Translations under genes and position numbers: made by a program
Notes under the pieces: generated by a model
The model's input: the letters and a program-made list of their open reading frames with translations, nothing else
Told to the model about the DNA's origin: nothing
The model's database searches: none
Assembly (NCBI GenBank): GCA_023144005.1
Contig: JAGLGN010000016.1
Location: forward strand, 13,022-77,021
DNA: 64,000 nucleotides
Direction of reading: 5' to 3'
DNA from: a bacterium
Lineage (GTDB): Bacteria > AUK180
Part shown: one piece after another, positions 16,347 to 63,694 of the stretch
Layout of the letters: each line of letters begins with the position of its first letter
How positions within the stretch are numbered: the stretch's first letter is position 1

Positions 16347-17381
16347 TCAATGCAACTCCCTCCAGATCGCCAGATTTTCAAATTGATCGCCGCCTTGAGG
16401 GGTGATAACGGTCTTTACCCCGAAGTGATGCGCGAGGATCAGTGAATTCGTCCCGCCATGAGAGAGCAATAGGTCTATATGCGGAAGGATGCTGCTCAAG
16501 GAAATATTGTAAAGATAATTAAGCTCACCCGGGTCGTCAGGCTCCGGGCCTGTAATAAATACATTATACTTGCTCATATCTATATGTAATTTCTTTAACA
16601 TGTTCTTTGCGCGTGCCGGCTTATTGAAGATGGTGCCCAGAGATATCAGAATATTCTGCTTGCCGTTATTCGGAGGGCTGAATTCGCCGGGAAAAAGCAG
16701 ATTGGGCTCCGGCAGATACGGAATTAGTTCGACATTACGGGGAAATGATCTTATATAGGAATGAAATTCTCGGGGAGGGGTGACTATGACCTTCTCCATC
16801 TTTGGCATTTCTTGAGAAAGTACATCCGCCTTGACCCCTTTTGAAAGGGCGTAAGGAAATATGAAGGCCCAATACAACAGATTAAACCAGAACTTCCTCA
16901 ATCGATTCAAAAGAGGGTAATATAATCGGGATATCGGGGTGGGATAAAATCTGAAAGACCTCTCAGTCCCCTCTCTAAATGGATACACAATGGGATAAAC
17001 CATCCAATATCCGATCGAATGTTTTTTACAGATCATATGGGAATATGCCATGAAGAAATCCGATGCGATCGCATCATATCCCTCTTTCCGATGAAGGTCC
17101 TCAGCGAAATCCGCCGCCTTTTTATTGTAGGCGGGCAGCTGGAAGTACATCTGATAGTCACCGAGTAATCTGATATTAGGTACATTAAGATCAAATTCAA
17201 GCGGGACCTCGTGGACCTTATCTATTTCTTCCAATTGGCTGAAGATCTTTGAATATTTCTTTTCACATACTACGGAAAACGAATACCCCAATTTCGAATA
17301 ATGCCTGATGACACCGACCGCGGGCAGCATGTGGCCGACCAAGGGGGCGGTGACATATAGAACTTTCTTTTTCTCTTTCAC
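16347..17381 (-). CDS. Family 1-type glycosyltransferase, C-terminally shortened
   Basis: 344 residues. LYVTAPLVGHMLPAVGVIRHYSKLGY is the acceptor-side start of UGT/MGT-type (GT1) glycosyltransferases. The donor site is present: ILISLGTIFNK and HIDLLLSHGGTNSLILAHHFGVKTVITPQGGDQFENL. Relatives normally continue 40-60 residues after the GGDQ motif; here the frame stops 11 residues later, where AATTGTC repeats begin. The 3' end has probably been lost to the repeat island (inference). Activity is uncertain. The start is GTG directly after a promoter, with no Shine-Dalgarno. Confidence 0.82.
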   Translation of the reverse strand: MKEKKKVLYVTAPLVGHMLPAVGVIRHYSKLGYSFSVVCEKKYSKIFSQLEEIDKVHEVPLEFDLNVPNIRLLGDYQMYFQLPAYNKKAADFAEDLHRKEGYDAIASDFFMAYSHMICKKHSIGYWMVYPIVYPFREGTERSFRFYPTPISRLYYPLLNRLRKFWFNLLYWAFIFPYALSKGVKADVLSQEMPKMEKVIVTPPREFHSYIRSFPRNVELIPYLPEPNLLFPGEFSPPNNGKQNILISLGTIFNKPARAKNMLKKLHIDMSKYNVFITGPEPDDPGELNYLYNISLSSILPHIDLLLSHGGTNSLILAHHFGVKTVITPQGGDQFENLAIWRELH

Positions 17382-17386
17382 GATTT

Positions 17387-17414
17387 ATTATACATTTTCT
17401 CACGATGTTTTCAA
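17387..17414 (-). promoter_or_regulatory. Promoter of the glycosyltransferase gene, leaderless type
   Basis: On the minus strand TTGAAA (17414-17409), a 16-bp spacer and TATAAT (17392-17387). Only 5 nt separate the -10 box from the GTG at 17381, so transcription should start at or next to the start codon. Confidence 0.65.
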
Positions 17415-17426
17415 AACAGAATAATG

Positions 17427-17446
17427 GGGACGGTGGCTTCAACCAA
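17427..17446. repeat. GGGACGGTGG half-site
   Basis: GGGGACGGTGGCTTCAACC between two divergent promoters matches one arm of the hairpin elements at 11865 and 50817. No mate is visible nearby. Confidence 0.45.
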
Positions 17447-17461
17447 TGAACAATGTATTAT

Positions 17462-17490
17462 TTGACAAAATACCGAGAATCCAATAAAAT
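17462..17490 (+). promoter_or_regulatory. Promoter of the small membrane protein / glycosylase pair, leaderless type
   Basis: TTGACA (17462-17467), 17-bp spacer, TAAAAT (17485-17490). The ATG at 17498 begins 7 nt after the -10 box, with no Shine-Dalgarno. Confidence 0.7.
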
Positions 17491-17497
17491 GTTTACC

Positions 17498-17860
17498 ATG
17501 AGAAGTTTTCAAATAAAAAGAATATTCTTTCTTCTTTCACTTATGGGACTTGTGTTCATATTACCGCTTGATAAACTCTCAGATATTTCTTTTCTGAATT
17601 TCTGTCAAACTTGTCCCATCTACATGGAAGGCGCTGCATCTAATGTATCTTTAGGTGTATTTGTGCAAAATATCCTTTTAGCAATACTCTATTATACGCT
17701 GGGGACCATCCCTATTTTCGCATTCATCGTCGGAGGATCATATAAATCCCCTGTCCAACAACTCCGTTATCCTATTCGCGGCTTATGCCCTCTTCACAGG
17801 ACAAAGGCGATAGGTTTCAGATATACATTCTCAGTGAGAAAAGATCAATTACCGAAATGA
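17498..17860 (+). CDS. Small membrane protein, unknown
   Basis: About 120 residues from the ATG at 17498, chosen from the promoter position. Two hydrophobic stretches are seen (IFFLLSLMGLVFILPL and ILLAILYYTLGTIPIFAFIVGG) with a CQTCP motif between them. The C-terminal 45 residues are basic and not membrane-like. Its stop TGA overlaps the ATG of the glycosylase gene (ATGA), which suggests coupled translation and supports it as a real gene. I do not recognise the family. Confidence 0.55.
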   Translation: MRSFQIKRIFFLLSLMGLVFILPLDKLSDISFLNFCQTCPIYMEGAASNVSLGVFVQNILLAILYYTLGTIPIFAFIVGGSYKSPVQQLRYPIRGLCPLHRTKAIGFRYTFSVRKDQLPK

Positions 17861-18471
17861 AAATGAACCGCGTATTCCAGCTTTACAAAGATCTTCTTGA
17901 AAAATACGGGCAACCGCAATGGTGGCCAGCGGAATCTCCTTTTGAAGTCGCTGCCGGTGCGATACTGACACAGAATACCAATTGGAAAAATGTGGAGAAA
18001 GCCATTACTAAATTAAAGGGGCTTGGACTAATGACAGCAGAATCTATAGTTGCCGTTGACACCAAGATCCTCGAAACAGCCATCCGCTCCAGCGGCTACT
18101 TCCGTCAGAAGGCGGAGCGGCTGAAAATACTCTCACGCTTTCTCATGGACAAATATCTTGAAGACGGAGTACTCACTGAAGGCCTTTCGCCGAATCAATT
18201 ACGGGCAGGTCTTCTTGCCCTGAAGGGAGTAGGCCCTGAGACCGCGGATTGCATCCTTTTATATGCTTTTGACCTGCCGTTTTTCGTGATCGATGCCTAT
18301 ACAAGGAGATTTGTAAAAAAGCACAGCTTATGCGCACCAGATCTGAAATATGAGAAGATGAGAAAATTCTTTGAAATCAATCTTCCGAAAGATGCCCGCA
18401 TATACAATCAATATCATGCACTGATAATAATTGACGGAAAAGCGGAGCAGGCAAGAACGTATGACTCGTAA
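17857..18471 (+). CDS. EndoIII-related DNA glycosylase (MagIII-like), short C-terminus
   Basis: 204 residues of the HhH-GPD superfamily. The helix-hairpin-helix LKGVGPETADCILLY has Glu where EndoIII has its catalytic Lys, and the Asp of FVIDAYTRRF is the conserved catalytic Asp. This pattern fits the MagIII group (3-methyladenine glycosylase) better than true Nth. There is no Cys cluster at the C-terminus, so no Fe-S centre. The protein ends YHALIIIDGKAEQARTYDS, somewhat earlier than most relatives, and repeats begin soon after. It is translationally coupled to the preceding membrane protein. Confidence 0.85.
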   Translation: MKMNRVFQLYKDLLEKYGQPQWWPAESPFEVAAGAILTQNTNWKNVEKAITKLKGLGLMTAESIVAVDTKILETAIRSSGYFRQKAERLKILSRFLMDKYLEDGVLTEGLSPNQLRAGLLALKGVGPETADCILLYAFDLPFFVIDAYTRRFVKKHSLCAPDLKYEKMRKFFEINLPKDARIYNQYHALIIIDGKAEQARTYDS

Positions 18472-18505
18472 CAAAGGGAGAGGTGCACAATAGCACAAGT
18501 ATTCA

Positions 18506-18548
18506 CGTGTGAAGTGTGAAGCAGTGCTTCACATTGTTGTTGACAATG
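18506..18548. repeat. GTGTGAAG heptamers and two adjacent hairpins
   Basis: GTGTGAAGTGTGAAG repeats run into the hairpin GTGAAGC-AGT-GCTTCAC (18516-18532), followed by CATTGT-TGTTG-ACAATG (18532-18548). The second hairpin overlaps the -35 box of the EAL gene. Confidence 0.6.
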
Positions 18549-18568
18549 CAGGCGTAATTTGATAGAAT
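18540..18568 (+). promoter_or_regulatory. Promoter of the EAL gene, leaderless type
   Basis: TTGACA (18540-18545), exactly 17 bp, TAGAAT (18563-18568). The ATG at 18575 follows after 6 nt and no Shine-Dalgarno is present. The -35 box lies in the right arm of a small hairpin. Confidence 0.75.
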
Positions 18569-18574
18569 AAATGC

Positions 18575-20164
18575 ATGAAGATAACCGATATTATTTATGT
18601 GACTCCGAATGATGTCACATATCAAGAAGTTTTTTTATTTCTTGTCAGGAACGGTTTCAGTCCATTCTGGATGCCCGAAAAAAACTCTTTCGACGCTTTT
18701 TTCGAACACTACCCTGATCTGAAATTAATTATTATTGACTCAAAGGTCATTAATGACGACTTCTCCATCATTCAGAGATTGAAATTCTCACCGAAAACAG
18801 CGGATTGCGGCATCATTTTCATTTCAGACGATGAAAAAACATGCAATCAGGCCAAGTTCCTCGGTGCGGATTATGTTCTGGTTAAACCTTTTAACCCCGA
18901 GAAGCTGCTTTTCGCGATAAAAGAAGTGATGTCCAAGCATGACTTTTTCTCCATAGAGCCGAATGAATCACTTTCCGTTATTCATAATGTCAATCCTTCA
19001 TTGATGATCAATTTCAAGAAGATCATTAATCTCACGAAGGTCTATAAGAACATCAGAATATACGTTCATGAGTTCAACGATCTCCCGAAAGAGAAAGAGA
19101 AGATGGTCGTGGAACAGATACGCGCTGAGATGAATAAGGTGATCAGCGCCCAAGTGCCTTTCAAGAACAGATTCCTTCTCATCCCATATACACAAAACGA
19201 TATTGTCCTGATGGTCTTTTATCCCGACTCCTTTTCCAAGAACCTCTTCCTTGAGTTGACAAATGACATGGAGAAGTCCATCCTGCCGATCGTAAATGAA
19301 CATAGGGGCAGCTACACCTACGGCTTTTCCGATTCCTCCTTCTCCACTGATATGGAACACTTTGAGATCACTGTTTACTCTCTGCTGAAGAGGGCATACG
19401 AGGTGATCTGGGATACCAAAAAGGACAAATTTTCGAAGTACATTAATGAATTTGGACGGATTATTTCCGATGAATCCATTTGGACTGAATACCAACCTAT
19501 TATTGACCTCTCGGATATGAGCATATACGGGTACGAGGCCTTGTCAAGGGGGCCCGTAAATACCATCTGGCAGGCGCCTGAATTCCTCTTTGAGATGGCC
19601 TTTAAATTCGATAAGATCGCTCAACTGGAAAGCGTGTGCGCGCAAAGCAGCTTGAAGCGGTTTGATGTCATGGATCAGAGTTCCAAGCTCTTTGTTAATA
19701 TTCACCCGTTGGCATTGGAAGAATTACTTCCCTCTTTCGAAGATTATTTGAGTAAATATCCGAATATCGAACTGGTTGTCGAGATCACTGAACGCAAGCT
19801 GATACAGGATTTCAAGAAATTCAAAAGACTTTTCAATAATATGAGGGAAAGGGGCATCAAGATAGCTCTTGATGATGTGGGTTCCGGCTATTCATCTCTA
19901 CAGTACCTAGTGGAGCTTGAGATCGACTATATGAAGATCGACCGCAGCTTGATAACGGCATTGCATAAGAATTTCATCAAGGAATCCGTAGTGAACGCCC
20001 TTGCGGAGATCGCAAAAGATCTTGGAGCCAAGGTGATAGCAGAAGGCATCGAAATGACTACTGATCTGGAAGCGATAAAGAAACTGGATATTCAATTGGG
20101 TCAGGGTTTTCTCTTTGCTCATCCCACGATACACCCGCCCAAGAAGATCGAATTTCATGGGTAA
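18575..20164 (+). CDS. c-di-GMP phosphodiesterase: receiver-like + degenerate GGDEF + EAL
   Basis: 529 residues, cytosolic. Residues 1-120 are receiver-like, with Asp55 (LIIIDSK) and Lys104 (VKPFN) kept but no N-terminal acidic pair. Residues 150-295 look like a GGDEF domain that has lost its signature (NDIVLMVFY in its place). The EAL domain (about 305-525) keeps its catalytic set: YEALSRG, FVNIHP, EITE, LDDVGSGYSSL, MKIDRS, AEGIE and GQGFLFAHP. It should therefore hydrolyse c-di-GMP to pGpG. It is a single gene behind its own promoter. Confidence 0.92.
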   Translation: MKITDIIYVTPNDVTYQEVFLFLVRNGFSPFWMPEKNSFDAFFEHYPDLKLIIIDSKVINDDFSIIQRLKFSPKTADCGIIFISDDEKTCNQAKFLGADYVLVKPFNPEKLLFAIKEVMSKHDFFSIEPNESLSVIHNVNPSLMINFKKIINLTKVYKNIRIYVHEFNDLPKEKEKMVVEQIRAEMNKVISAQVPFKNRFLLIPYTQNDIVLMVFYPDSFSKNLFLELTNDMEKSILPIVNEHRGSYTYGFSDSSFSTDMEHFEITVYSLLKRAYEVIWDTKKDKFSKYINEFGRIISDESIWTEYQPIIDLSDMSIYGYEALSRGPVNTIWQAPEFLFEMAFKFDKIAQLESVCAQSSLKRFDVMDQSSKLFVNIHPLALEELLPSFEDYLSKYPNIELVVEITERKLIQDFKKFKRLFNNMRERGIKIALDDVGSGYSSLQYLVELEIDYMKIDRSLITALHKNFIKESVVNALAEIAKDLGAKVIAEGIEMTTDLEAIKKLDIQLGQGFLFAHPTIHPPKKIEFHG

Positions 20165-20390
20165 AAGTGATCTACTAATAGAGGATGGAGGATAGAGGAT
20201 AGAGGTTAGTGCAGAATAAAGGAACCACATCCTTCATTCTCATGAAGTTTATCCCTATTATATCGGGGATCGGTAATCCATCTTTTTCTACCTACAACCC
20301 TATCACCTTATCATCCTATCATCCCTTTCCATGTTCCACTGGGTCCACTTGTCCCTGGGTCCACTGCGAAGCGTCATTGTTAAGGTATTT
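20165..20390. repeat. Repeat island before the NamZ-like gene
   Basis: Contains GATGGAGGATAGAGGATAGAGG (20182 onward), CTATCACCTTATCATCCTATC repeats (20300-20325), module C in reverse orientation (20332-20375) and the end of a B element in reverse orientation (20377-20405). The last supplies the ATG of the next gene. Confidence 0.8.
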
Positions 20391-21500
20391 ATGAATCAGA
20401 ACACTAGTACCGGTCTGGATCTTTTTCTTGGATCAACCGAATATCGAAACAGAAATATTGGAATACTGACAAATCAAAGCGGCGTGGGCTCTTGCGGCAC
20501 GCCGAATATTGAATTACTGCTTGCTGCCGGCTTCCGCATCAAGACCATCTTTGTTCCCGAACACGGCTTAAGAGGAAGTAAGGGCGGCGGAGAGAGGATC
20601 GAGGATCATATGGACCCTCATTATAATATTCCGGTAGTCAGCCTGTACAATGAAAAACTCAGAATCGATTCCGATAAATTCAAGGACATTGATATGCTCC
20701 TCTATGACATCCAGGATGTAGGAGCAAGGTTTTATACCTATATTGCCACATTAAAAGCAATTCTGGGATCGATCTCCGAGTCAGGGCAAGATATCAAAAT
20801 CGCGATCCTTGATAGGCCGGCGTTCCTGGGAGACAGCATTCAGGGAACACTTCCTGATGAGATCTCTTTTTTATCGCCCGAATTCATCCCAATCAGATAC
20901 GGCCTTACCGTCGGAGAATTCGCATTATACACCGCCCGGATCAACAATTATGACACGGAAATTGAGATTTTCCACATCCCTGATTATCATAGGGGAATGC
21001 AATTCCCCGATACCGGTGTGCCGTTCATCTCTCCGTCATCTGCCATCAGAAATTACGAGACCGCGCTGATCTACTCGGGAACCTGTCTTTTGGAAGGCAC
21101 AGACCTGTCCGAGGGCAGAGGCACCGATACTCCGTTTTTGGCATGGGGAAGCCCCGATATGCCCGATATAAAAGTTGATTTTTCAGGATTCGAAATAAAA
21201 GCATACGAGTTTATACCGGAATTCAGCAAATTCAGCGGCAAGAAGATCAAGGGTTTCCGCGCAGCGTTGACAGACCGCGATTCGGCTGAGCCCTTTCGCG
21301 ATATGGTACTGTTCTTAATGGCATTTCACAAGCAGCGCCCCATTGATTTCCGTCTGCCTCATTTTGACCATCTCACGGGAGGCAGTTTCATCAGGGAAAT
21401 GATCTGTGAGGGTAACAAAGCCGGGTTTTTATCCCGCTTGAAAGAGGATCAGGAAAAATTCAGAGAAAGTTCGGAAGATTTCCGCTTATATTCTTTTTGA
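20391..21500 (+). CDS. namZ: NamZ-like exo-beta-N-acetylmuramidase (DUF1343)
   Basis: 369 residues from the ATG at 20391. Family motifs: IGILTNQSGVG, FVPEHGLRG and LLYDIQDVGARFYTYIATLK, then TGVPFISPSSAI and LLEGTDLSEGRGTDTPF. NamZ enzymes remove terminal N-acetylmuramic acid from cell-wall sugars and serve muropeptide recycling. No signal peptide is visible, so it appears cytosolic. The first residues, MNQNT, are encoded by the end of a B element, and no Shine-Dalgarno is seen. The 3' end overlaps the convergent phosphoesterase gene by 15 bp. Confidence 0.9.
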   Translation: MNQNTSTGLDLFLGSTEYRNRNIGILTNQSGVGSCGTPNIELLLAAGFRIKTIFVPEHGLRGSKGGGERIEDHMDPHYNIPVVSLYNEKLRIDSDKFKDIDMLLYDIQDVGARFYTYIATLKAILGSISESGQDIKIAILDRPAFLGDSIQGTLPDEISFLSPEFIPIRYGLTVGEFALYTARINNYDTEIEIFHIPDYHRGMQFPDTGVPFISPSSAIRNYETALIYSGTCLLEGTDLSEGRGTDTPFLAWGSPDMPDIKVDFSGFEIKAYEFIPEFSKFSGKKIKGFRAALTDRDSAEPFRDMVLFLMAFHKQRPIDFRLPHFDHLTGGSFIREMICEGNKAGFLSRLKEDQEKFRESSEDFRLYSF

Positions 21501-22265
21501 CCTGAGAATTATCAACTCCGGAGGTGACATGAACCGAAGCGGAAAGAGTGTTGTCCCCAAACCCCATGTATGCAATATCTGGACACCTTTATAAGTTGAG
21601 ATCCCTCTTTTTGTGATTTTACCCCGGCGGATATTGTTAAATATAGAACCGATCAGAGGAATACGGATCTGACCGCCGTGTGTGTGGCCGTAGAGAAGCA
21701 GGAAAGGAGAATATTCCCCTATATCATCCAATATCTCCGGAGAGTGTGAGAGGAATATACATTTCTCCTCTTTGTCTATTCCCTTGAACGCCGCATCAAT
21801 ATCATCACGGAACTTATGAGGGTCATCTACTCCGGCTATCGTCCATCCTGGAAACAATTCGCGATGCTCATTTATCAGGACCTTCATGGAGTGCCTCTCA
21901 AAGATCTCAAGGATCTCCTTCATTCTTTCCGGGGTTGACCCGGGGCCATGATCATTATTTCCCAGTACAAAAAAGCATCTTTTATCGTCAAAGCATTTGA
22001 AAAAGGGGTAGTCGGCGACATTCTCAAAGGTATCGCCAAGGCAAAAAAGCGTTTTTATCGGACTGGCGGATATCAGGGCGCCGAGCCTACGATGGAATCT
22101 CTCCTCTCTTTTCATATGAAGGTCGGATATGACAATGATATCCTCCGGGAGGCCTTCGATCTCGTACTCAACGATCCTTAGCCTTGTCCTCTCGAAAAAG
22201 TATGAATATATTATTACAGAGATGGGGATCAGAGAAAGGAGAATTCCAAGAAGCGTATCATTCAT
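21486..22265 (-). CDS. Membrane-anchored metallophosphoesterase (YaeI/YkuE-like)
   Basis: About 259 residues from the ATG at 22265, which overlaps the cysS stop (ATGAATGA). An N-terminal membrane helix (LLGILLSLIPISVIIYSYFF) is followed by the calcineurin-type metal motifs: ISDLHMKRE, LGDTFE, LGNNDHG, LSHSP and YGHTHGGQ. Related enzymes (YaeI, YkuE) act on UDP-2,3-diacylglucosamine-like or lipid-linked substrates. As the last gene after the lpx cluster it could serve the LpxH/LpxG step of lipid A synthesis (inference, untested). Confidence 0.85.
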   Translation of the reverse strand: MNDTLLGILLSLIPISVIIYSYFFERTRLRIVEYEIEGLPEDIIVISDLHMKREERFHRRLGALISASPIKTLFCLGDTFENVADYPFFKCFDDKRCFFVLGNNDHGPGSTPERMKEILEIFERHSMKVLINEHRELFPGWTIAGVDDPHKFRDDIDAAFKGIDKEEKCIFLSHSPEILDDIGEYSPFLLLYGHTHGGQIRIPLIGSIFNNIRRGKITKRGISTYKGVQILHTWGLGTTLFPLRFMSPPELIILRSKRI

Positions 22266-23649
22266 CCATTTTCCTGAGGATGAATCCTTTGGGAGTATCC
22301 TCAACAATATATCCCATTTCTGTGATTTCTCCCCTCAATTCATCCGCGCGGGAATAATCCTTGTCCTGACGCGCTTGATAACGCTCTTGGGCAAGTGTAT
22401 TTACATCGGCGGGGATCTTGTTTTCGGTCATTTCCAATTGAGAGATGTCAAGTATGGTATTGAATCTTGTAAATGCCTTAATTACAGCTTCTTTGGTCGC
22501 GGCATTGACCTTAAGAGGATCGGCAGAATTGATATTGTTTATTATAATGAATAGATGCGACAGGGCATTACCTATTCCCAGATCGTCCATGAGTGCATCG
22601 AAGAAAGCCTTCTCATGCTCCCTGACCATATCGACCAGGTCCACGGACCCTTCTCCGCCCGCCATAAGGTGCTGCACGAATACCTTGATATTAGAGATCG
22701 TGCTTTCCGCTGCTTTCAATCCTGTGATCGTGAAGTTCAGCTGCGCCCGGTAATGACTCGAAATAAGCATATATCTGACCGAATCGTAGTCAAAGCCCCT
22801 ATCTTCCAATTCTCTTAATGTATAAAAATTGCCCAATGATTTGGACATCTTTTTGCCTTCCACGATAAGGTATTCGGAATGTATCCAGTAATTCACCGTT
22901 TTCACGCCGCAAAAGGCCTCGCTTTGAGCTTTTTCATTCTCATGATGCGGGAAGATCAGGTCAACTCCACCGGTGTGAATATCAAATTGTTCCCCGAGAT
23001 GCTTTCGGCTGATGGCGGAACATTCGATATGCCATCCGGGACGGCCTTCTCCAAAGGGCATCTTATAAGAGGGCTCATTATCCTTTTTCCCCTTCCAGAG
23101 CGCGAAATCGCCCGGACTCTCCTTCTCATATGTATCCACATCCACTCGAGCTCCGATCTTAACCTTGCTCAAGTCCAATTTTGAAAGTTTTCCGTACTCC
23201 GGATATGATGCTAAACTGAAATATACAGATCCGCTACTTTCATAGGCATATCCCTTTTCAATGAGAAATTGTATCATTTCACTCATGAAGTCGATCTCGT
23301 CGGTAGCGCGCGGGGCAAGATCGGGACGGCTGCATTTTAATTTTTCCAGATCCTCAAAGAAGATCTTTTCATATTTCAATGAAATTTCGTGGAAGTCAAC
23401 CCCCTTTTCATTCGCTCTCTTTATGGTCTTGTCATCAATATCGGTAATATTCATGACCTGATATAGAGAATATCCCGCTTCTTTCAGAATACGCTTAAGC
23501 AGATCGACAAAAACAAAGTATCTTAAGTTGCCGATATGAGCATAATCATATACCGTGGGGCCGCAGGAATACATCTTAACTTCATTGCCGTTGATGGGTG
23601 TAAAGTTCTCGATCTTTCGACTTAAGGTGTTGAAGATCTTGATCGTCAT
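22258..23649 (-). CDS. cysS: Cysteinyl-tRNA synthetase
   Basis: 463 residues, normal length. Class I signatures are present: YDYAHIGNLR (HIGH) near 35 and KKMSKSLGNF (KMSKS) near 267. Zinc ligands are Cys in MYSCGPTVYD, Cys in WHIECSAIS and His/Glu in FPHHENE. It charges tRNA-Cys. It overlaps the Gfo/Idh gene by 4 bp (ATGA). Confidence 0.98.
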   Translation of the reverse strand: MTIKIFNTLSRKIENFTPINGNEVKMYSCGPTVYDYAHIGNLRYFVFVDLLKRILKEAGYSLYQVMNITDIDDKTIKRANEKGVDFHEISLKYEKIFFEDLEKLKCSRPDLAPRATDEIDFMSEMIQFLIEKGYAYESSGSVYFSLASYPEYGKLSKLDLSKVKIGARVDVDTYEKESPGDFALWKGKKDNEPSYKMPFGEGRPGWHIECSAISRKHLGEQFDIHTGGVDLIFPHHENEKAQSEAFCGVKTVNYWIHSEYLIVEGKKMSKSLGNFYTLRELEDRGFDYDSVRYMLISSHYRAQLNFTITGLKAAESTISNIKVFVQHLMAGGEGSVDLVDMVREHEKAFFDALMDDLGIGNALSHLFIIINNINSADPLKVNAATKEAVIKAFTRFNTILDISQLEMTENKIPADVNTLAQERYQARQDKDYSRADELRGEITEMGYIVEDTPKGFILRKMDE

Positions 23650-26814: not shown

Positions 26815-26819
26815 TGATG

Positions 26820-35467: not shown

Positions 35468-35903
35468 TATTGCCTCGTTTTAAGTGTACTGTCTCATAAA
35501 GCGGTATACAATCAATTAGTGCTCTAAAAAAAGATTGTTCAAAAGTTAAGCTTCGCAGTGCACAAGGTACAAGGCACAAGGTACAAGGGACAAGCTTCGC
35601 AGAGCACAATGGAGAAGCAGAGGTTGGAGGCTGGAGGTTATGCTTCGCAGAGCACAAGTGGCACGCTTCGCAGTGGACCCAAGTACAAGTGGACCCAGTG
35701 GAACATGGGATAGGAATAAGAAAAATCATTTGAGATAGGAATTCTCTGTGTTCTATTCTGTAATTGTCCATTGTCAATTGTCCATTGTCAATTTCTCTTA
35801 TTACCCTCTTCAATTCTTCATTTCCCCACTTTACACTTCACACACCACACTTCACACTTGCTTTTGCACTTGTTCATTGTACTTATCCACTTTACACTTC
35901 ACA
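35468..35903. repeat. Repeat island between two minus-strand operons
   Basis: Contains a B-like end in the upstream region of the HD gene (TGTCTCATAAAGCGGTATAC, 35491), exact 7-bp ACAAGGT/ACAAGGC repeats (35560-35593), GCTTCGCAGAGCACA units (35593 and 35642), module C (35663-35705), a block shared with 55489 (AATCATTTGAGATAGGAATT), TTGTCCATTGTCAATTGTCC (35763-35792) and CACACCACACTTCACACTT (35838-35860). No gene: open frames here are repeat artefacts. Confidence 0.85.
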
Positions 35904-49184: not shown

Positions 49185-50339
49185 TTACTCCTTAAATTTG
49201 CTATAAACCTGCTGGATCTCCTCGTATCCCTTAAAGAAAGCATCTACAACATAGGGACAGAATTGCTGCCCTCTCTCTTCCCTGATCAATGCAACTACCT
49301 TTTCAAGGGGCCAGGCTTCTTTGTAAACCCTCTTGACACTAAGGGCGTCAAAGACATCCGCAAGTGCTGAGATCCTCCCTTCAATGGGGATCTCCTCTCC
49401 CTTAATACCCTCGGGATAACCCTTGCCGTCCCATCTCTCATGATGTGTCATGGCAATGGACCTTCCCATCGAAATAAGGTCATTATCGGGATTTTTCAAT
49501 ATGTCCGCACCGATTATGGTGTGTTTTTCCATTATACTTCTTTCATCAACGGTCAGCCGGCCCGGCTTCAGCAATATCCGGTCAGGAGTACCTAATTTGC
49601 CGATATCGTGCATCGGGGACGCATACAATAGAACTTCCAGAAACTCATCATCGTATCCCAGCTGCTCGGCGATAATACGGGAATAATTACTCATCCTCTC
49701 CAGATGGTACGCGGTATCGGGATCCCTGTATTCCGCGGCGTTGACCAGGCGGTAAATGGTTGAAAGGTGAGCATCCTTTACATTCTGCGAAAGCATGGCG
49801 TTCTTCAGTGAAATAGCGGCAAAGGAAGCAAGGGTAGAGAGCGCTTTTACCGCATTGTCATGAAAAGAGACTGTTTCACCGTTCTCATCCTTCGCATTGA
49901 TCAGCTGCAATACGCCGATCACATGGCCGTCCCGGTCGGTAAGGGGAAGGACCAGCATGGATTTTGAGCGGTATTCAAATCTGTTATCAAAAGATTTGAA
50001 AAAACTGTAAGGGGTATCTTTGGGAAGATGGTAAACATCTTTGATCTTCAATATCTCGCCGGTGAGGCAGACATAGCCGGCGATGTTCTCACGCGTCAAT
50101 GCCAGCGGGAAGGGCTTGAAGAGACGGTTGCCGTCGATCTTGAATCTCTTCTCAAGGGTCTCATTCTGGCTGGATATGAACTCCAATTGATGCGCTTTCT
50201 TGATATACAGACTGCCTGCATCCGCGTTCGCGACTTCTCTGGATGTTTTGAGGATCTTATCGAATAATTTCTCAAGATTCCGCTCGGAAGAAAGAAGAAG
50301 TCCAACTTCAATGATTTTACTGAGATCACTCTTATTCAT
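49185..50339 (-). CDS. GAF-HD-GYP c-di-GMP phosphodiesterase
   Basis: 384 residues. GAF domain (about 18-175), then HD-GYP (about 195-380): HLERMSNYSRIIAEQL, MHDIGKLGTPDRILLKPG, MEKHTIIGADIL, THHERWDGKGYPEGIKGEEIP and ISALADVFDALS. All HD-GYP metal ligands are visible, so it should degrade c-di-GMP. No Shine-Dalgarno precedes the ATG, which lies 6 nt after a -10 box. First of a five-gene unit ending with NFACT. Confidence 0.95.
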   Translation of the reverse strand: MNKSDLSKIIEVGLLLSSERNLEKLFDKILKTSREVANADAGSLYIKKAHQLEFISSQNETLEKRFKIDGNRLFKPFPLALTRENIAGYVCLTGEILKIKDVYHLPKDTPYSFFKSFDNRFEYRSKSMLVLPLTDRDGHVIGVLQLINAKDENGETVSFHDNAVKALSTLASFAAISLKNAMLSQNVKDAHLSTIYRLVNAAEYRDPDTAYHLERMSNYSRIIAEQLGYDDEFLEVLLYASPMHDIGKLGTPDRILLKPGRLTVDERSIMEKHTIIGADILKNPDNDLISMGRSIAMTHHERWDGKGYPEGIKGEEIPIEGRISALADVFDALSVKRVYKEAWPLEKVVALIREERGQQFCPYVVDAFFKGYEEIQQVYSKFKE

Positions 50340-50345: not shown

Positions 50346-50374
50346 AGTATATAATAATACACACTAAAAATCAA
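50346..50374 (-). promoter_or_regulatory. Promoter of the HD-GYP unit, leaderless type
   Basis: Minus strand TTGATT (50374-50369), 17 bp, TATACT (50351-50346), then 6 nt to the ATG at 50339. The spacing puts the start of transcription at or next to the ATG. Confidence 0.75.
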
Positions 50375-51832: not shown

Positions 51833-52291
51833 ATGCCTACAGGAATGTGGTGGTTCTGGCTCGTTCTGGGCCTTGCCTTTTTGGTTATTGAGATGGCTAC
51901 GGCGGGTTTTTTCGTAGTCTGGTTCGGCCTTGCGGCCCTGCTTGCCATGGGTGCAAATCTTTTGCATTGGCCACCTGTGTGGCAATGGGTGATCTTTCTG
52001 GTGTTTTCTACCATTGGCGCAGTACTTTCCAGGCGTTTTGCCAGAATGTTCACCAGAAAAGAACCGGATCGGCTTGCCAGCGAAGAAGTATTGGATCATG
52101 TCGGCAAGGTAATTGACGAACTCAAAGACAATGAAGAGGCGGTACTTGGTAAATTTCAGGGCGAGACCTGGAGATGCTTCCCCGCCGATAAGTCATTGGT
52201 ATTAAAGATTGGAGATAAATTAAAAGCTATTGAGATTGAGGGAACTCATCTTATCGTTGAAAGGATAGATTCCGAAAATACTTCGGAATGA
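51833..52291 (+). CDS. NfeD-family membrane protein (YbbK type)
   Basis: 152 residues. Three membrane helices (FWLVLGLAFLVIEMATAGF, FVVWFGLAALLAMGANLL, WVIFLVFSTIGAVLSRRF) and a C-terminal OB-fold (about 85-145, GKVIDELKDNEEAVLGKFQGETWRC). It partners with the SPFH protein encoded 14 bp downstream and is thought to act in membrane domain quality control. Confidence 0.93.
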   Translation: MPTGMWWFWLVLGLAFLVIEMATAGFFVVWFGLAALLAMGANLLHWPPVWQWVIFLVFSTIGAVLSRRFARMFTRKEPDRLASEEVLDHVGKVIDELKDNEEAVLGKFQGETWRCFPADKSLVLKIGDKLKAIEIEGTHLIVERIDSENTSE

Positions 52292-53416: not shown

Positions 53417-53418
53417 CT

Positions 53419-53446: not shown

Positions 53447-53451
53447 GTTAG

Positions 53452-55382: not shown

Positions 55383-55655
55383 TATAACCAGATAGAGGCT
55401 AGAGGATAGAGGCTTATAGAGAAATGGACAATTGACAATGGACAATGAACAATTGGGGAAGGATAGAAGAAACACATCCGTAACCGGAAAATCATTTGAG
55501 ATAGGAATTCTCTGTGTCCTATTCTGTAATTGCCCATTTTTCACTATTCACTTCTCTATAGCCCTGGTACTTCTGCTTCGCTTGTGCTCGTGTGCACTTG
55601 TGCTCTGCACTTAACCTCTTCTCTAATTGTATTTTCCCACTTTACACTTCACACT
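55383..55655. repeat. Repeat island with A and 35.7-kb-type fragments
   Basis: GAGGCTAGAGGATAGAGGC (55393), ACAATTGACAATGGACAATG repeats (55427-55454), a family A left-end fragment (ACATCCGTAACCGG, 55471), then about 40 bp (55489-55528) nearly identical to 35727-35766, GTGCTCGTGTGCACTTGTGC (55583) and CTTCACACTTCACAC (55644). It lies between convergent genes. No gene seen. Confidence 0.85.
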
Positions 55656-56588: not shown

Positions 56589-57661
56589 CTTTTCATCTCC
56601 AAGAAAACATTTCCATTGAGGAATTTTCCCGATTTTCTTTCAAATTTCAATGCCTGCGATACCTTTTTCGGAGATTTTCCTGAGTATAAGGGTATGCCGT
56701 CCGACCCGATAATAATGGGAGCCACGAAAAAGTAATAATCATCGACAAGTTTAGTATCAAGAAAGGCGGTAAAAACCTTGCTGCCGCCCTCTACGAGGAC
56801 AGATGATATCGCCCGTTTGCCCAATTCCTTCAACACCGCTCTGATATTATAGGCATCTCTTAAGCTGATAACTTCCTTGACCTGATCTGCGAATATCTCA
56901 TTCCCCGCGTTCATATTCTGAACGATGATGATCTTATCGCCGCTTTCTTTAAAAAGGTTTAATTTACTCAAGTTCCTGAGTTTTCTTCTGCCTGCCAGTA
57001 TGATCTTCAAGGGGTCTCTCTTCTTGGCGGTGCTTCTGACGGTGAGATGCGGATTGTCCTTGTTAAGTGTATTGTAGCCGATCATGATCGCGTCAACAGC
57101 ATTTCTGAGTTCGTGAACCTTCTTTCTGGCGCCTTCATTGGATATCCATTTGGAATCGCCGTTATTGACCGCGATCTTGCCGTCAAGGGATATAGCGGCC
57201 TTGAGTATGACATACGGCAATCCGGTACTGATATACTTGACGAAGAATTTATTGAGCTCTCTTGCTTTGTCTTCCAGTATCCCTGTTATTACCTCGATCC
57301 CGGCATCCTGCATCATCTTAATGCCTCTACCGCAAACCTGAGGGTTCGGATCTTCCATGCCGATGACCACGCGCTTCACTTTCGCTTTGATGATAGCTTC
57401 CGCACAAGGCGGCGTACTGCCCCAATGCGAACAGGGTTCGAGCGTAACATACATGGTTGAGCCCCTCGCGTCCGTGCCAGCTTCCCGAAGAGCGTATACC
57501 TCTGCATGGGGTTTGCCCGCTTTTCGATGATAGCCCTTTCCGATGATGCGGTTCTTTTTCACTATTATAGAGCCGACCATGGGATTGGGAGACACCGTAT
57601 ATTTGCCCTTCTTCGCCAAATTAAGCGCGACTGTCATATAATCTTCGTCTATTATTCTCAT
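56585..57661 (-). CDS. ribD: Bifunctional riboflavin deaminase/reductase RibD
   Basis: 358 residues. Deaminase domain (1-145): HAEVYALREAG and EPCSHWGSTPPCAEAI carry the zinc ligands. Reductase domain (150-358): LPYVILKAAISLDGKIAV, KWISNEGARKKVHELRNAVDAIMIGYNT and SSVLVEGGSKV. It carries out steps 2 and 3 of riboflavin synthesis. No other rib gene is adjacent. Confidence 0.97.
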   Translation of the reverse strand: MRIIDEDYMTVALNLAKKGKYTVSPNPMVGSIIVKKNRIIGKGYHRKAGKPHAEVYALREAGTDARGSTMYVTLEPCSHWGSTPPCAEAIIKAKVKRVVIGMEDPNPQVCGRGIKMMQDAGIEVITGILEDKARELNKFFVKYISTGLPYVILKAAISLDGKIAVNNGDSKWISNEGARKKVHELRNAVDAIMIGYNTLNKDNPHLTVRSTAKKRDPLKIILAGRRKLRNLSKLNLFKESGDKIIIVQNMNAGNEIFADQVKEVISLRDAYNIRAVLKELGKRAISSVLVEGGSKVFTAFLDTKLVDDYYFFVAPIIIGSDGIPLYSGKSPKKVSQALKFERKSGKFLNGNVFLEMKR

Positions 57662-58234
57662 CTAATTAAAATCCTTCAGGTAATAAATGATCTCGCCCTC
57701 TTGTATTGAAACGGGCCCGATGCCGTCTGCCAGATGGAAATATTTGGAATAGTCATAACTTATCTCGGGAAAGGTCCGATATACCTCCCATTCCAAATGC
57801 ACGGTTTCTTCCCATTGCTTAATTTCCACGCCGACCTCTTGAACAATGAAGAAATTGTAATTAATGCCCCCCGTATATTCCCAGGTGAATCCCTCGATCA
57901 TCGGGTATCTTATGAATGGATTGAATATACCGAGATTATAAAAGTCGATCCCTCTGGAATCGGGGCTCATATAATATGTGGTCGTATTTGCCGCTGTGTT
58001 CTGAATCACGGTAAATACATCTCTTGAGGATGTGGTAAATTGATCTGTCACCGTCCAGGTAAATGTCTCGCCCGCTGCGCTTTCAAATGACCAGGATGAG
58101 GAGGCATGTAAAGGGAAATAGTTCTTGTCATTGCGTAACTCTTCAAGAGACGGGACCAGCGGATTAAGGCCGCATCCGGTGAGCGCGATAAGAGCGAGTA
58201 TCAGAAGGCATCCGTATATATATTTTCTTCTCAT
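57662..58234 (-). CDS. Lipoprotein, unknown
   Basis: 190 residues. Lipobox ALTGC (Cys21), then a beta-rich domain with Trp and aromatic residues (FPLHASSSWSFESAAGETFTWTV). No recognised family. It lies directly before ribD. Confidence 0.75.
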   Translation of the reverse strand: MRRKYIYGCLLILALIALTGCGLNPLVPSLEELRNDKNYFPLHASSSWSFESAAGETFTWTVTDQFTTSSRDVFTVIQNTAANTTTYYMSPDSRGIDFYNLGIFNPFIRYPMIEGFTWEYTGGINYNFFIVQEVGVEIKQWEETVHLEWEVYRTFPEISYDYSKYFHLADGIGPVSIQEGEIIYYLKDFN

Positions 58235-58242
58235 ACTACCAC

Positions 58243-58755
58243 CTATATATCAACGATTATGCCGAATTTCAGAGAGAGTAGATAGATGCCGTCGGTAACA
58301 AATAATCCCAGGTCACAGGACAGATTTAATTTTTCAGTGTAATAGTAGCGTATAAATCCTCCCAGATGGATACCGAAAAAAGTCTTGCCCATTTCTCCCG
58401 AGTCTGATTTGAGCACCTCGGAGATCACACTTAAGCGGGCGTAAGTACCCAAGCAATAGTAAAATCCCTTGAAAGGAGAATATGTCAGGCCCGGAGAAAA
58501 TGAGGTCAGGGTGAAGGTGATATCCTCAAAATTGGACGCGGTGAGAGAAGCGTGGCTGATGCCGATGTCGAATTCCAGAAGATCGTTCTGCCAAAAAGGT
58601 ATCCTGCCCTGAAGTTCATATCCCGCATCCAGATAGGTCTGCTGGCCGAAAAGCGGAAAGACAGGGCCGCCGGAGAGAGAAATATCCAGTCCAAGCACGA
58701 TAACGGGAATGAAAATAAGGATCAGAAGCGCCAACTTACTTTTCAATACTTTCAA
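58243..58755 (-). CDS. Small outer-membrane beta-barrel-like protein
   Basis: 170 residues with a signal peptide (LALLILIFIPVIVLGLD) and alternating aromatic beta strands (FYYCLGTYARLSVISEVL, GIHLGGFIRYYYTEKLNLSCDLG). Likely an 8-strand barrel or a related envelope protein. It overlaps the TsaC-RpiB stop by 20 bp. Confidence 0.65.
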   Translation of the reverse strand: MKVLKSKLALLILIFIPVIVLGLDISLSGGPVFPLFGQQTYLDAGYELQGRIPFWQNDLLEFDIGISHASLTASNFEDITFTLTSFSPGLTYSPFKGFYYCLGTYARLSVISEVLKSDSGEMGKTFFGIHLGGFIRYYYTEKLNLSCDLGLFVTDGIYLLSLKFGIIVDI

Positions 58756-59701
58756 CCCTCTTACCGTGGCGGCCGCCTTCGAAATCGGTATTGAAAAAGG
58801 TATCTATCATCTTGCCAAGTTCTTTCGGATCAAGAAATCTTCCACCGACAACAAGTATATTCGCGTCATTATGCCGACGCGCAAGCTCCACATACTCCGG
58901 ACTATGGCACAATGCCGCCCTAATCCCTTTAAAGCGATTTGCGGCGATAGACATCCCGATACCAGTACCGCAGATCAAAATCCCCTTAGAACCGCTTTCC
59001 AGCACATTAATCGCGACCTTTTGCGCGATATCAGGGTAATCTACAGAGTTTGTGTCAAAAGCGCCCATATCAAGGAATTCTTTTTTCTTCATCTGAAGGA
59101 TCTCTTTTACCTTTTCCTTCATTTCAAAACCCGCGTGATCAGAGCCGATAATTACATCCGCAGCCATATTTTCCAAACCTCCTGCACCGAATCTTAGTAT
59201 ATCATATCCCAAGCCGGTTTTCCTAATCACTGTCGAGGGAATACCGATTTTCTCAGAGATTTCACCGAAGACATGAATATCGGCAAAAGCGGGTAAGCGC
59301 AGCAGGGAGAGGGAAAATTCTCCTCCGCTCTCGTTCAGGCTTGTGGCAGCCAGAGGGCCGCATTCGTCAATGATCTCATTGATCTCTTTGACAGTAGAGC
59401 ATCTTACCCCCACCGTACCGTTGGAAAAGGCCGCTGTTTTCATTTCGGTCGGCACTATGACCGTGTACGGGCCGGGAAGAAGTTTATGAAGAATTGCCAT
59501 CTCTCCAGGAACGACACCAAGTTCAATGGCCTGTTTCGGATCTGACACCCATACCTGAAGCGGTTTTTCCGCGCCGCTTCCTTTAAGTGTCCGGATTCTG
59601 TTGACCGCTTCATCATTAAACGCCAAGGTAAAAAGACCGGGTACCGTATCTGTCGGCAGAATAATGATACCGCCGGCTTTTAATATTCCGCAAGGGGTCA
59701 T
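58736..59701 (-). CDS. TsaC(Sua5/YwlC)-RpiB fusion protein
   Basis: 321 residues in one frame. Residues 1-176 are TsaC: IILPTDTVPGLF, IRTLKGSGAEKPLQVWV, KLLPGPYTVIV and TSLNESGG (the SxNxSG site), for threonylcarbamoyl-AMP synthesis in tRNA t6A37. Residues 181-321 are RpiB: IIGSDHAGFEMKEKV (D188, H189), DYPDIA, ILICGTGIGMSIAANR (catalytic Cys244) and RHNDANILVVGGR, the ribose-5-phosphate isomerase. Fewer than ten residues link the domains. In Firmicutes the two genes are neighbours, which suggests how the fusion arose. Both active sites look intact. Confidence 0.93.
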   Translation of the reverse strand: MTPCGILKAGGIIILPTDTVPGLFTLAFNDEAVNRIRTLKGSGAEKPLQVWVSDPKQAIELGVVPGEMAILHKLLPGPYTVIVPTEMKTAAFSNGTVGVRCSTVKEINEIIDECGPLAATSLNESGGEFSLSLLRLPAFADIHVFGEISEKIGIPSTVIRKTGLGYDILRFGAGGLENMAADVIIGSDHAGFEMKEKVKEILQMKKKEFLDMGAFDTNSVDYPDIAQKVAINVLESGSKGILICGTGIGMSIAANRFKGIRAALCHSPEYVELARRHNDANILVVGGRFLDPKELGKMIDTFFNTDFEGGRHGKRVESIEK

Positions 59702-60471
59702 AGCTCTATAACCTTTGAGGGCTGATCCTGGAAAGTCATGATCAATTCAACAGAGTTTTTACACAAAAATCCTTCCGTATACACCTTCATTACTTTTTCA
59801 GGTGAATTATTCTCTTCGCTCAAGTGAAAAGGAACGACATACCGTATTCCGGCTCCCGCCTCAATAAGCTCAGCGAAGAATTCAAAGCCCTGTTCATTGG
59901 ATAAATGACCTTTCTCGCCCAGTATCCGGCGTTTCAAATTCCATGGGTATTTCGAACCGAAAAGCAGGTCGATATCGTGATTGGCTTCGATCACCAGCAC
60001 ATCAACTTTTTTGATCTTCTTAAGTATCATTTCAGGAATATCTCCGGTATCGTAAATGAAAAGGGCTGCAGCGTCCGCATCCTTGATATAAAAGCCGATA
60101 TTGCCGGCGGAGTCGTGTTTAAGGTCCACAGAGCGTATACTTGCGGTACCGCATTTTAATACCTTACCTCTTCCCATGACATTACCCTTTGAGGCATTGC
60201 TTATCTTCGAATAAAGGTATTTCCGAGTACCGAAAGAGGTGTAAAATTCGATAGGGTGGTTTTTTAAAAATGTTTCAAGGCCCTTGATATGATCTCCGTG
60301 CTCATGTGAGATCAGTATGAATTCAATATCTTCAGGGGATTCGCCGATGGCGGATAAACGACTGCATACCTGTTTGTAGGAAAAGCCGATATCGATAAGA
60401 AATTTTGAATTGCCGGCCTCACAGAAAATCGAGTTACCTTTGGAGCCGGATCCCAATACGGTAATTTTCAT
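59698..60471 (-). CDS. MBL-fold hydrolase (YycJ/WalJ-like)
   Basis: 257 residues. VLGSGSKGNSIFCEAG, LISHEHGDHIKGLE (HxHxDH), IYDTGDIP, VIEANHDIDLL and GHLSNEQ are the YycJ motifs; YycJ-type enzymes are single-strand-preferring DNA exonucleases. It overlaps its neighbours by 4 bp on both sides. Confidence 0.92.
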   Translation of the reverse strand: MKITVLGSGSKGNSIFCEAGNSKFLIDIGFSYKQVCSRLSAIGESPEDIEFILISHEHGDHIKGLETFLKNHPIEFYTSFGTRKYLYSKISNASKGNVMGRGKVLKCGTASIRSVDLKHDSAGNIGFYIKDADAAALFIYDTGDIPEMILKKIKKVDVLVIEANHDIDLLFGSKYPWNLKRRILGEKGHLSNEQGFEFFAELIEAGAGIRYVVPFHLSEENNSPEKVMKVYTEGFLCKNSVELIMTFQDQPSKVIEL

Positions 60472-62498
60472 TCATTCATTCGGTTTTCTAATTCTTCGCG
60501 GAGGACTTGAATTACATTTTCGATATTCTTCTCTTCACCGGGGGAATAGCCCAATACTTTCTCATATGTATCAAGCGCTTCCTTGAATACTCCGCGCTGA
60601 ATGTGAATATACCCAAGCATCTTCAGGGCTTCAATATCGTCCGGCGATTCCTCAAGATGAGTTTTGATCTCATTAAAAGATTCCTCAAGATGGCCGAGCT
60701 CAATAAAATTCTGCGCCAATTTAAAATGTGTTGCCGTTATCTTCGGGTCGAGAAGCTTGGCCTTTTCGTAAAATTCAACCGCTTCATCAAAACGCTCGGG
60801 GAATTTGCCCGCGACATCGCCCAGATAAAAGTAGATCTCAGCGGATTCGCCGACGAATTTCAAGGCCTGTGTCAGCATCGTTTCAGCTTTTGCGGGCTGA
60901 TTGAGGCCCAAAAAGATCTTCGCGATCGCGATATACGCGTCGGAACGCTTGGCATTCTTGGAAATAGCGGTCGTCAAGAACCCCAGAGCTTCCTTCATCC
61001 TCTTTTCTTTGATTCCGAGTTCGCCAAGGTTTACCAGAATATCATAATCATCGCCATTGGTCTTCTGAGCCACTTCCAGAACGGCGGCGGCATGCGTCAC
61101 ATCACCCTTTTCCGTGAGAAGTTTTGAAAGCATAATGTAGTACTTCACCTTTTCCGGAGCAAGGGTAAGCAGGCTTTTCAAATAGCCTATGCTCTCATCG
61201 ATCTTTCTTACCCTCAGGCTCAATTGCGCCAGAGCGAAGAGTATCTCTTCACTTTCTTTATATTTATTTGCTTTCTCATATGCCCAAATGGCGAAATGTA
61301 TGAAGCCGAGCTCATTGTAGATGAAACCGAGATTCGCCATGATATCACCGTCAAATCCGGCGTTCGCAATATATCTCTTGTAGAGTTTGATGGAATCGGA
61401 ATAAGAGCCGGCTTCGAAGTCCATGACAGCAAGAAGACGAACCATATCAATGTTCTTGGGAAAGAGGTTAACGCCTGTCTGTAAATACTTTTTTGCCTCG
61501 GAGAATTTCGCCTGGGAATAATAGATCTGGCCCAATCTCAGATAACTCTCGAGGGATTTCGGATTCATCGCTATGGCATTCTTAAAAGAATCGATGGCCT
61601 TGTCGGTTTCGCCGTCAAGAAAGTAGATCTCGCCATAATTTTTATGCACGAATGCGTCGTTTTTATTGATCTCAAGTATCTTTTTGAGTGTTTCCTTTGC
61701 CTTTTCCAGATCTCCCATCTTGATATATGTATTGGATACCGCGTCCAATACATTCGTGTCATCGGGATAAATCTTCAAGGCCTTCTCGTAGCACTCCAAA
61801 GCCCTTGAGAAATTCTCCATTAATCTGTATGCGGTACCGAGATTGAAATGGAACATCGGAGTGAGTTCGTCCAGCTGTATAGCCATATCAAAATAACCGA
61901 TGGCCTCATCATAACGGCCCAATTTCTCTAAAATAAAACCGTTATTATTCAAGAGAAAGGCATCTTCGGTAATATCCATTATCAGCTTCTCGGAAAACTC
62001 GAGCGCCTTCTCATAATCACCGAGATCCTCAAAGAGATACATCAATTCACGCATTACATCCACGGAATCTGGATTCTGCTCATAGATATTCTCTAAACAC
62101 TCTTTCGCCTTATCGAATTTCTCGTCTTCGCTATAGATCTTGACAAGGAGCGAGACAGCATCCCAATTCTCTTTATCAAGCAATATTATTTTTTTCAGTT
62201 CAAGTATCGCTCTCGCATATACCTTCTTTTCATAGAGTAATTTCGCGGAGCTTAAAAAATCCTCTTTTACCTTCGGATTCATTTCGATGGCTGTCAGATA
62301 ATTCTTTCTTGCCTCATCTTCCTTGCCCTCTTCAAAATAAAGATTGCCGAGATAAAGATAGGGCTCATACCGTTCTTCGTCCGCCTGTGCCGCTTTCTGG
62401 AAAAATTTTGCTGCTTTGGCATAGCCCTTTTTATCAAGCTCGATCATGCCTTCACTTATAAATTTTTCGAAATTTTTTGACGAACCCTTCTTAGCCAT
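60468..62498 (-). CDS. Large cytosolic TPR protein
   Basis: About 676 residues from the ATG at 62498, which overlaps the GT stop. Some 18 TPR units from residue 10 to the end (AAKFFQKAAQADEERYEPYLYLGNLYFEEGKEDEARKNY). No signal peptide and no catalytic domain. Possibly a scaffold for glycan export (inference from the upstream GT). Confidence 0.88.
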   Translation of the reverse strand: MAKKGSSKNFEKFISEGMIELDKKGYAKAAKFFQKAAQADEERYEPYLYLGNLYFEEGKEDEARKNYLTAIEMNPKVKEDFLSSAKLLYEKKVYARAILELKKIILLDKENWDAVSLLVKIYSEDEKFDKAKECLENIYEQNPDSVDVMRELMYLFEDLGDYEKALEFSEKLIMDITEDAFLLNNNGFILEKLGRYDEAIGYFDMAIQLDELTPMFHFNLGTAYRLMENFSRALECYEKALKIYPDDTNVLDAVSNTYIKMGDLEKAKETLKKILEINKNDAFVHKNYGEIYFLDGETDKAIDSFKNAIAMNPKSLESYLRLGQIYYSQAKFSEAKKYLQTGVNLFPKNIDMVRLLAVMDFEAGSYSDSIKLYKRYIANAGFDGDIMANLGFIYNELGFIHFAIWAYEKANKYKESEEILFALAQLSLRVRKIDESIGYLKSLLTLAPEKVKYYIMLSKLLTEKGDVTHAAAVLEVAQKTNGDDYDILVNLGELGIKEKRMKEALGFLTTAISKNAKRSDAYIAIAKIFLGLNQPAKAETMLTQALKFVGESAEIYFYLGDVAGKFPERFDEAVEFYEKAKLLDPKITATHFKLAQNFIELGHLEESFNEIKTHLEESPDDIEALKMLGYIHIQRGVFKEALDTYEKVLGYSPGEEKNIENVIQVLREELENRMNE

Positions 62499-63660
62499 CA
62501 ATAAGCATCCTCTTGTAGATATCCTCAATGTCCCCGACCATCTTGTCAATGGTAAATTCCCTGAGGATCAGTTTTTTGCCGGAAAGAGCCATTTTTTTTG
62601 CCCCTTCAGTGTTATTTATAACATAATTCAAAGATTTTTTCAAATTTATCATGTCGCCGGGGGGTATTAAAAATCCTGTGATATTTGGAATAACAACCTC
62701 GGATGCGCCGTCCACATCAAAGGCGATAACCGGCTTTTCCAGCAGAAATGCCTGAGGGACGACACGGGGAAGCCCCTCCCTTAATGAGGGGTGTATAATT
62801 CCGTCACAACTGTCAAGGTATATAGGTATTTCTTCAGGGGGGATAAGGCCGGTGAAAATGATGTTCTCTGAAATCCCCTCTTCCCGCGCTATACGCTCAA
62901 ATCGCTCCCGCAGGATACCGTCGCCGATAAACATGAACTTCACTCCCGGGTGCTTTCTGATGATCTCCGGAGCGACCTGCAATATATACTTGTGCCCCTT
63001 CAGATGAAATAACCTTGCCACGGTGGCAAAGATCATATCGTCATCGCCGCAGCCGAATTTCCTTCGGATCTCCGCGCCTTTGCCGAAGGCGTTCAGGAAA
63101 TCCTCTATATTCAGGCCGCTTCTTACAATATGCGAGTCTCTTTTTCTCCCAATACCGCGAATGAGGCAGCTCTGCATATTATTGCCTGACACATACAGGA
63201 TCTTATGGGTGATAAGGGAGGTAAGGAATTCTGCAAGTACATAGAAATATCTTATATAGAACGGCTGAAAGAAATGATAAGGAAGGCCGTGTACGGTATG
63301 AATGATATTGGGAACACGGGCAAAATACGCCGCCCATCTTCCGATAATGCCGGCCTTTGATGAATGAGTATGTACAATTGAGTATCTGCCGGTGCGAAAA
63401 AAAGAATACAATCGGAAAAACGCGAGGACATCCTTTTTGGGAGACAGATTACGGATCAGGCTGGGTTCTATCGTCAAAGGGATATTCCGCTCTCTTATCC
63501 TGCCCACTATCTCGCCTTCAGGGCCGGTGGTAGGGCCGGATAGAAGATGTGCGTCCCAGCCGCGTGATAAAAGCCCTTCCATTGTGAACATCGTATTTTC
63601 CTGGGCGCCGCCCACAATAAGACGTGTAATGATATGGAGAACTTTTTTATTGGATCGCAT
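62491..63660 (-). CDS. GT4-family glycosyltransferase
   Basis: 389 residues. N-terminal HIITRLIVGGAQENTMFTME, acceptor-side YSIVHTHSSKAGIIGRWAA, and donor-side GLIPPEEIPIYLDSCDGIIHPSLREGLPRVVPQAFLLEKPVIAFDVDGASEVV with the ExxxxxxE Glu pair. It resembles enzymes for capsule or lipopolysaccharide sugars. First gene of an eight-gene unit. ATG directly after a promoter without a Shine-Dalgarno. Confidence 0.94.
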   Translation of the reverse strand: MRSNKKVLHIITRLIVGGAQENTMFTMEGLLSRGWDAHLLSGPTTGPEGEIVGRIRERNIPLTIEPSLIRNLSPKKDVLAFFRLYSFFRTGRYSIVHTHSSKAGIIGRWAAYFARVPNIIHTVHGLPYHFFQPFYIRYFYVLAEFLTSLITHKILYVSGNNMQSCLIRGIGRKRDSHIVRSGLNIEDFLNAFGKGAEIRRKFGCGDDDMIFATVARLFHLKGHKYILQVAPEIIRKHPGVKFMFIGDGILRERFERIAREEGISENIIFTGLIPPEEIPIYLDSCDGIIHPSLREGLPRVVPQAFLLEKPVIAFDVDGASEVVIPNITGFLIPPGDMINLKKSLNYVINNTEGAKKMALSGKKLILREFTIDKMVGDIEDIYKRMLIDG

Positions 63661-63665
63661 GGAGT

Positions 63666-63694
63666 ATTTTAATCTTTCCCGGGGGAAAAATCAA
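63666..63694 (-). promoter_or_regulatory. Promoter of the GT4 unit, leaderless type
   Basis: Minus strand TTGATT (63694-63689), 17 bp, TAAAAT (63671-63666), then 5 nt to the ATG at 63660. Confidence 0.75.

Follow-up and report, generated by a model that had tools for sequence, protein, structure and literature searches.

Do promoters that press directly against the start codons of their genes mark out a small co-regulated group, or are they local examples of a gene-start layout that is ordinary in this bacterium and its family? The question is raised by the window, a 64,000-nt stretch (positions 13022-77021 of contig C8) of an assembly of 38 contigs totalling 2.67 Mb, referred to here as G000. 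A sequence-only reading of the window had reported five near-consensus promoters close to start codons, and the sites read as claimed, with -10-to-start gaps of 5, 7, 6, 6 and 5 nt in order of position, four spacers of 17 nt and one of 16 nt. The first promoter, TTGAAA-16-TATAAT-5-GTG (17387-17414, minus strand), precedes a GTG-initiated glycosyltransferase-like gene (16347-17381, minus strand; weakly GT1/EryCIII-like at its C-terminus), and the second, TTGACA-17-TAAAAT-7-ATG (17462-17490, plus strand), precedes the open reading frame at 17498. The remaining three stand before an EAL-domain c-di-GMP phosphodiesterase gene (18575-20164, plus strand; TTGACA-17-TAGAAT-6-ATG at 18540-18568), a GAF-HD-GYP c-di-GMP phosphodiesterase gene (49185-50339, minus strand; TTGATT-17-TATACT-6-ATG at 50346-50374) and a GT4 glycosyltransferase gene (62491-63660, minus strand; TTGATT-17-TAAAAT-5-ATG at 63666-63694). 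The two glycosyltransferase genes and the two phosphodiesterase genes are all predicted to be leaderless. Reading and scoring the sequence revealed no Shine-Dalgarno (SD) match at any of the five starts, in agreement with the earlier reading, and two of the SD-bearing controls that it had named also proved to be such: nfeD (51833-52291, plus strand) has TTGACT-17-TAAACT lying 20 nt from its ATG and the SD AAAGGAG (match 6), and the transglutaminase gene at 12169 has a gap of 25 nt and an SD match of 6. By chance, about 0.17 promoters of the abutting kind would be expected among the roughly 20 first genes of the window, and five were observed (p about 1e-6); set against the genome-wide rate of leaderless-type genes, five is unremarkable (p about 0.08). 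The earlier reading spoke of both c-di-GMP hydrolases; the window does contain two, but the genome has ten (eight HD-GYP and two EAL proteins).

The open reading frame at 17498 (17498-17860, plus strand), which had been described as a membrane protein, probably represents the remnant of a gene. Its residues 1-76 match the N-terminus of a permease of about 325 amino acids that is intact in the related genomes G002 and G003, and its last 44 residues match a different reading frame about 1.75 kb away in G002. Furthermore, the congener G001 has a tryptophan codon in place of the stop, and there the changes in the C-terminal part are mostly non-synonymous. Comparison of these sequences suggests a deletion that joined the start of the permease to the tail of another gene. 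The stop codon of the relic overlaps the start of an endonuclease III-like (HhH-GPD) gene (17857-18471, plus strand) in an ATGA arrangement, and the conserved promoter at 17462-17490 probably now serves this overlapping gene by co-transcription.

Elsewhere in the window, period-7 tandem repeats occur at 15199-15223, 16258-16301, 20178-20209, 35562-35594, 35762-35793, 63730-63762 and 63770-63822, with the varying units CACTTCA, ATTCTTC, ATAGAGG, ACAAGGT, AATTGTC, AAGTGTG and ACAATGA. In 1.44 Mb of the genome all 44 such arrays were intergenic, with 23 period-14 arrays besides, and only three were present in 0.40 Mb of the related genome G004. A constant period with a changing unit resembles the heptanucleotide repeats of cyanobacteria. 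An Rfam scan of the window found no RNA family, and a search of a plasmid collection gave no match.

The spacing between -10 element and start codon was surveyed in 1.44 Mb (54%) of the G000 genome, taken in stretches, in which a simple coding-potential caller, blind to upstream signals, defined genes and starts and yielded 404 first genes. The genome-wide count gave a sharp peak at gaps of 5-7 nt, with 45 cases observed against 3.4 expected from positions 61-119 (p about 3e-34), followed by a sparse interval at 9-14 nt and a second, broad hump at about 15-27 nt. The peak was absent upstream of operon-inner genes (6 of 460, vs 33 of 320 first genes). First genes with a gap of 4-8 nt were classed as leaderless-type (52 genes) and those of the long-gap class as led (110 genes). 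An SD match of at least 4 was found at 25% of leaderless-type starts, a level close to the background of 26%, and at 83% of led starts; a search of the G000 assembly for a 16S gene, from which the anti-SD could have been read, found none. The two classes share their -35 and -10 consensus, which is of sigma-70 type, and their 17-nt spacer, so one housekeeping-type sigma factor suffices for both, and we rejected a special sigma factor for the leaderless genes on the same equality of motifs. About a third of the recognisable first-gene promoters, as judged from these spacings, look leaderless. Exported proteins make up 15% of the leaderless-type and 32% of the led class, a weak effect (p 0.035). 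The idea that leaderless genes are accessory genes was discarded after a comparison of low power, in which genes with a reciprocal best hit in the G004 sample were as scarce in the leaderless-type class (3 of 52) as in the led class (6 of 110). In five divergent pairs both genes are leaderless-type (G000 C1:69999/70114, C12:5851/5956, C13:112223/113029, C20:29031/29114 and C35:67554/67829), and in three of these pairs both promoters lie within one intergenic region of 82-114 bp.

The window promoters were then compared with those of the congener G001, of three other genera of the same family (G002-G004) and of two members of a sister family (G005 and G006). The leaderless layout of the HD-GYP gene is present in G001, G002, G003 and G004, that of the EAL gene in G001, G003 and G004, that of the GT4 gene in G001, G002 and G004 (in the last with a GTG start), and that of the GT1-like gene in G001. 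In the other genera, the HD-GYP, EAL and GT4 orthologues follow the pattern TTGnnn-17-TAnnnT-5..7-start, and the G004 sample (0.40 Mb) has the same peak, at 5-6 nt. There are exceptions: the GT4 gene of G003 lies inside an operon, the GT1 relative in G004 carries an SD, and a nitroreductase gene that is leaderless in G000 is SD-led in G004. In both members of the sister family, G005 and G006, the leader of the HD-GYP gene is longer and carries an AGGAG-type SD; in G005 some 19 nt separate the GT4 promoter from its start codon, and the G005 sample holds 1 leaderless-type to 16 led genes (52 to 110 in G000, p 0.025). For the window genes, the leaderless layout is thus mostly kept in the three other genera of the family, and the sister-family orthologues look led. 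At the five sites, positions -42 to -1 are 86-93% identical between G000 and G001 (36 of 42 nt at the GT1-like gene and 39 of 42 nt at the 17498 promoter), falling to 22-52% for positions -150 to -43; beyond roughly 60 nt from the start codon the upstream DNA can no longer be aligned, the EAL gene reaching about -60. Because conservation covers -42 to -1 and not the DNA upstream, the evident constraint is a core promoter held against the start codon. Taken together, the bimodal spacing, the loss of the SD in the short-gap class only and the conservation across genera strongly support leaderless transcription.

The reading that we favour, and to which we give a probability of roughly 0.85 as a whole, is that a housekeeping sigma-70-type polymerase would transcribe the genes starting at 17381, 18575, 50339 and 63660 as well as the relic at 17498, with transcription starting at the initial nucleotide of the start codon or at most 1 nt from it. 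The resulting mRNAs would be leaderless and would be translated without SD pairing, as is known for leaderless mRNAs. Gene starts in the family would follow two standard layouts, of which this is one; it is seen in four of the four genera sampled, and its use is biased in function. This bias, towards glycosyltransferases and c-di-GMP enzymes, would most likely stem from low, growth-independent expression of these enzymes and not from a dedicated regulator.

The sequence-only reading had suspected that the five genes form a functional class under common regulation. For the functional part, the Glyco_trans_1_4, Glycos_transf_2, GGDEF, HD-GYP and EAL families were located genome-wide and their promoter-proximal starts were then classed. 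The suspicion holds in part, in that both groups are over-represented, although in a class far larger than five: glycosyltransferases divide into 10 leaderless and 2 led genes and c-di-GMP genes into 7 and 1, against 42 and 108 among the remaining sampled genes (p 2e-4 and 1e-3, which are approximate because genome-wide and sample counts differ in denominator). The two groups together, with the window genes removed, stand at 14:3 (p 2e-5), and within the 1.44-Mb sample alone the figures are 6:1 for glycosyltransferases (p 0.0035) and 4:1 for c-di-GMP genes (p 0.027); the excess of c-di-GMP genes involves small numbers and loses significance at the strictest promoter threshold. Pfam annotation of the leaderless set returned glycosyltransferases, polysaccharide flippases and HD-GYP and EAL proteins, and among the led genes the glycosyltransferase and HD-GYP families fall outside the 25 commonest Pfam families, with at most 2 members each among 106 genes. 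The leaderless class is nonetheless mixed, including also glyQ, the DNA polymerase III alpha subunit, folD and MgtE. A general enrichment of signalling was not supported, adenylate cyclase domains being found in 3 of 52 leaderless and 3 of 106 led genes. The strongest leaderless promoter among the classified c-di-GMP and glycosyltransferase genes belongs to a GGDEF gene (G000 C26:43429-43893), where a 12/12 consensus TTGACA-17-TATAAT ends 5 nt before the ATG; a GGDEF gene is leaderless-type in the G004 sample too.

The alternative that survives best traces the functional bias to gene arrangement, of which it would be a by-product: glycosyltransferase and signalling genes would often be transcribed singly and follow a neighbour on the opposite strand, a position in which the simplest solution is a bare promoter beside the ATG. 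It is a live rival because leaderless genes do follow an opposite-strand neighbour more often than led genes (37 of 52 vs 40 of 110, p 4e-5). However, the intergenic distances of the two classes do not differ (medians of 252 and 229 nt for leaderless and led genes, respectively), and the glycosyltransferase excess was measured against first genes rather than all genes. We regard this account as having a real chance of being correct, albeit a minority one.

The bias could also reflect a regulon. In that case the leaderless layout would let one common regulator, or one growth condition, govern glycosyltransferases and c-di-GMP enzymes jointly, for instance by preferential translation when growth is slow. 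The over-representation of both groups fits such an idea, as does the behaviour of leaderless mRNAs in Mycobacterium tuberculosis, which are poor in functions of active growth and become more abundant during starvation (PMC3898074), and crude coding scores are slightly lower in leaderless genes (p 0.05). However, the suspected co-regulation went no further than the bias itself: no element common to the five sites is visible besides ordinary core promoters, their alignable DNA stops within about 60 nt upstream, and some 80% of the leaderless class has other functions. A perfect palindrome, GTGAAGCAGTGCTTCAC (GTGAAGCA-N-TGCTTCAC; 18516-18532), directly upstream of the EAL -35 element, is a possible operator of the EAL gene, but among the loci compared it occurs only at the EAL genes of G000 and G001, with its centre base changed in the latter. 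A regulon is unlikely, and less probable than a by-product of gene arrangement. More doubtful still is the notion that leaderlessness is itself a regulatory mark, by which glycosyltransferases for surface polysaccharide and c-di-GMP turnover enzymes would be favoured jointly when initiation factors or the state of the ribosome change; if true, decisions about surface and biofilm life would be tied to how the translation machinery stands in slow growth and stress.

The two remaining alternatives concern the layout itself. Misplaced starts, with the true start codons lying downstream behind an SD and the promoters driving ordinary short leaders, deserve consideration in that start prediction ignored upstream signals and can err, but this explanation is very improbable: orthologues from other genera align from residues 1-7, an in-frame downstream start with an SD is found in 12% of leaderless, 17% of led and 12% of inner genes, and the gap is both sharp and conserved. 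Finally, although consensus scans of AT-rich upstream DNA are prone to false matches near starts (18 vs 11.7 in shuffled sequence for 16000-21000), chance can be dismissed in the face of the 45 vs 3.4 excess, its restriction to first genes, its conservation across genera and the scarcity of leaderless-type genes in the AT-richer sister family.

Leaderless genes as such are already known from many phyla (Zheng et al. 2011, PMC3160421); what is new here is the lineage, which is apparently absent from that survey, and the functional bias. The TA-led genes of the same survey are alike in having a TATAAT-like signal some 10 bp ahead of the start codon and no SD, in coexisting with SD-led genes, and in that orthologues of close relatives mostly keep their class. 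In contrast, signalling and cellular-process categories were relatively low among leaderless genes in the survey, whereas c-di-GMP genes and glycosyltransferases are enriched here. Similarly, a -10 element adjacent to the reading frame serves as a leaderless promoter in Deinococcus-Thermus, beside a second, RBS-carrying class (Zhong et al. 2025, PMC12340547); the present case differs in its full -35/-10 pair with a plain 17-nt spacer, in making up roughly one in three of the recognisable promoters and in being drawn from sequence alone. In M. tuberculosis, leaderless genes make up about a quarter of those with a primary transcription start site and are likewise non-random in function (Cortes et al. 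2013, PMC3898074), but there the leaderless mode was established by mapping transcription starts and was linked to starvation, while our starts are predicted, in an unrelated lineage and with other functions enriched.

The analysis brings in a further lineage, one where roughly one in three recognisable promoters looks leaderless. In such genomes, gene-start prediction fails where an SD is assumed. Furthermore, as the sister family is apparently mostly led, the gain or loss of the leaderless mode is open to study over a short evolutionary distance, and the link with glycosyltransferases and c-di-GMP enzymes offers a testable case of leaderlessness sorted by function.
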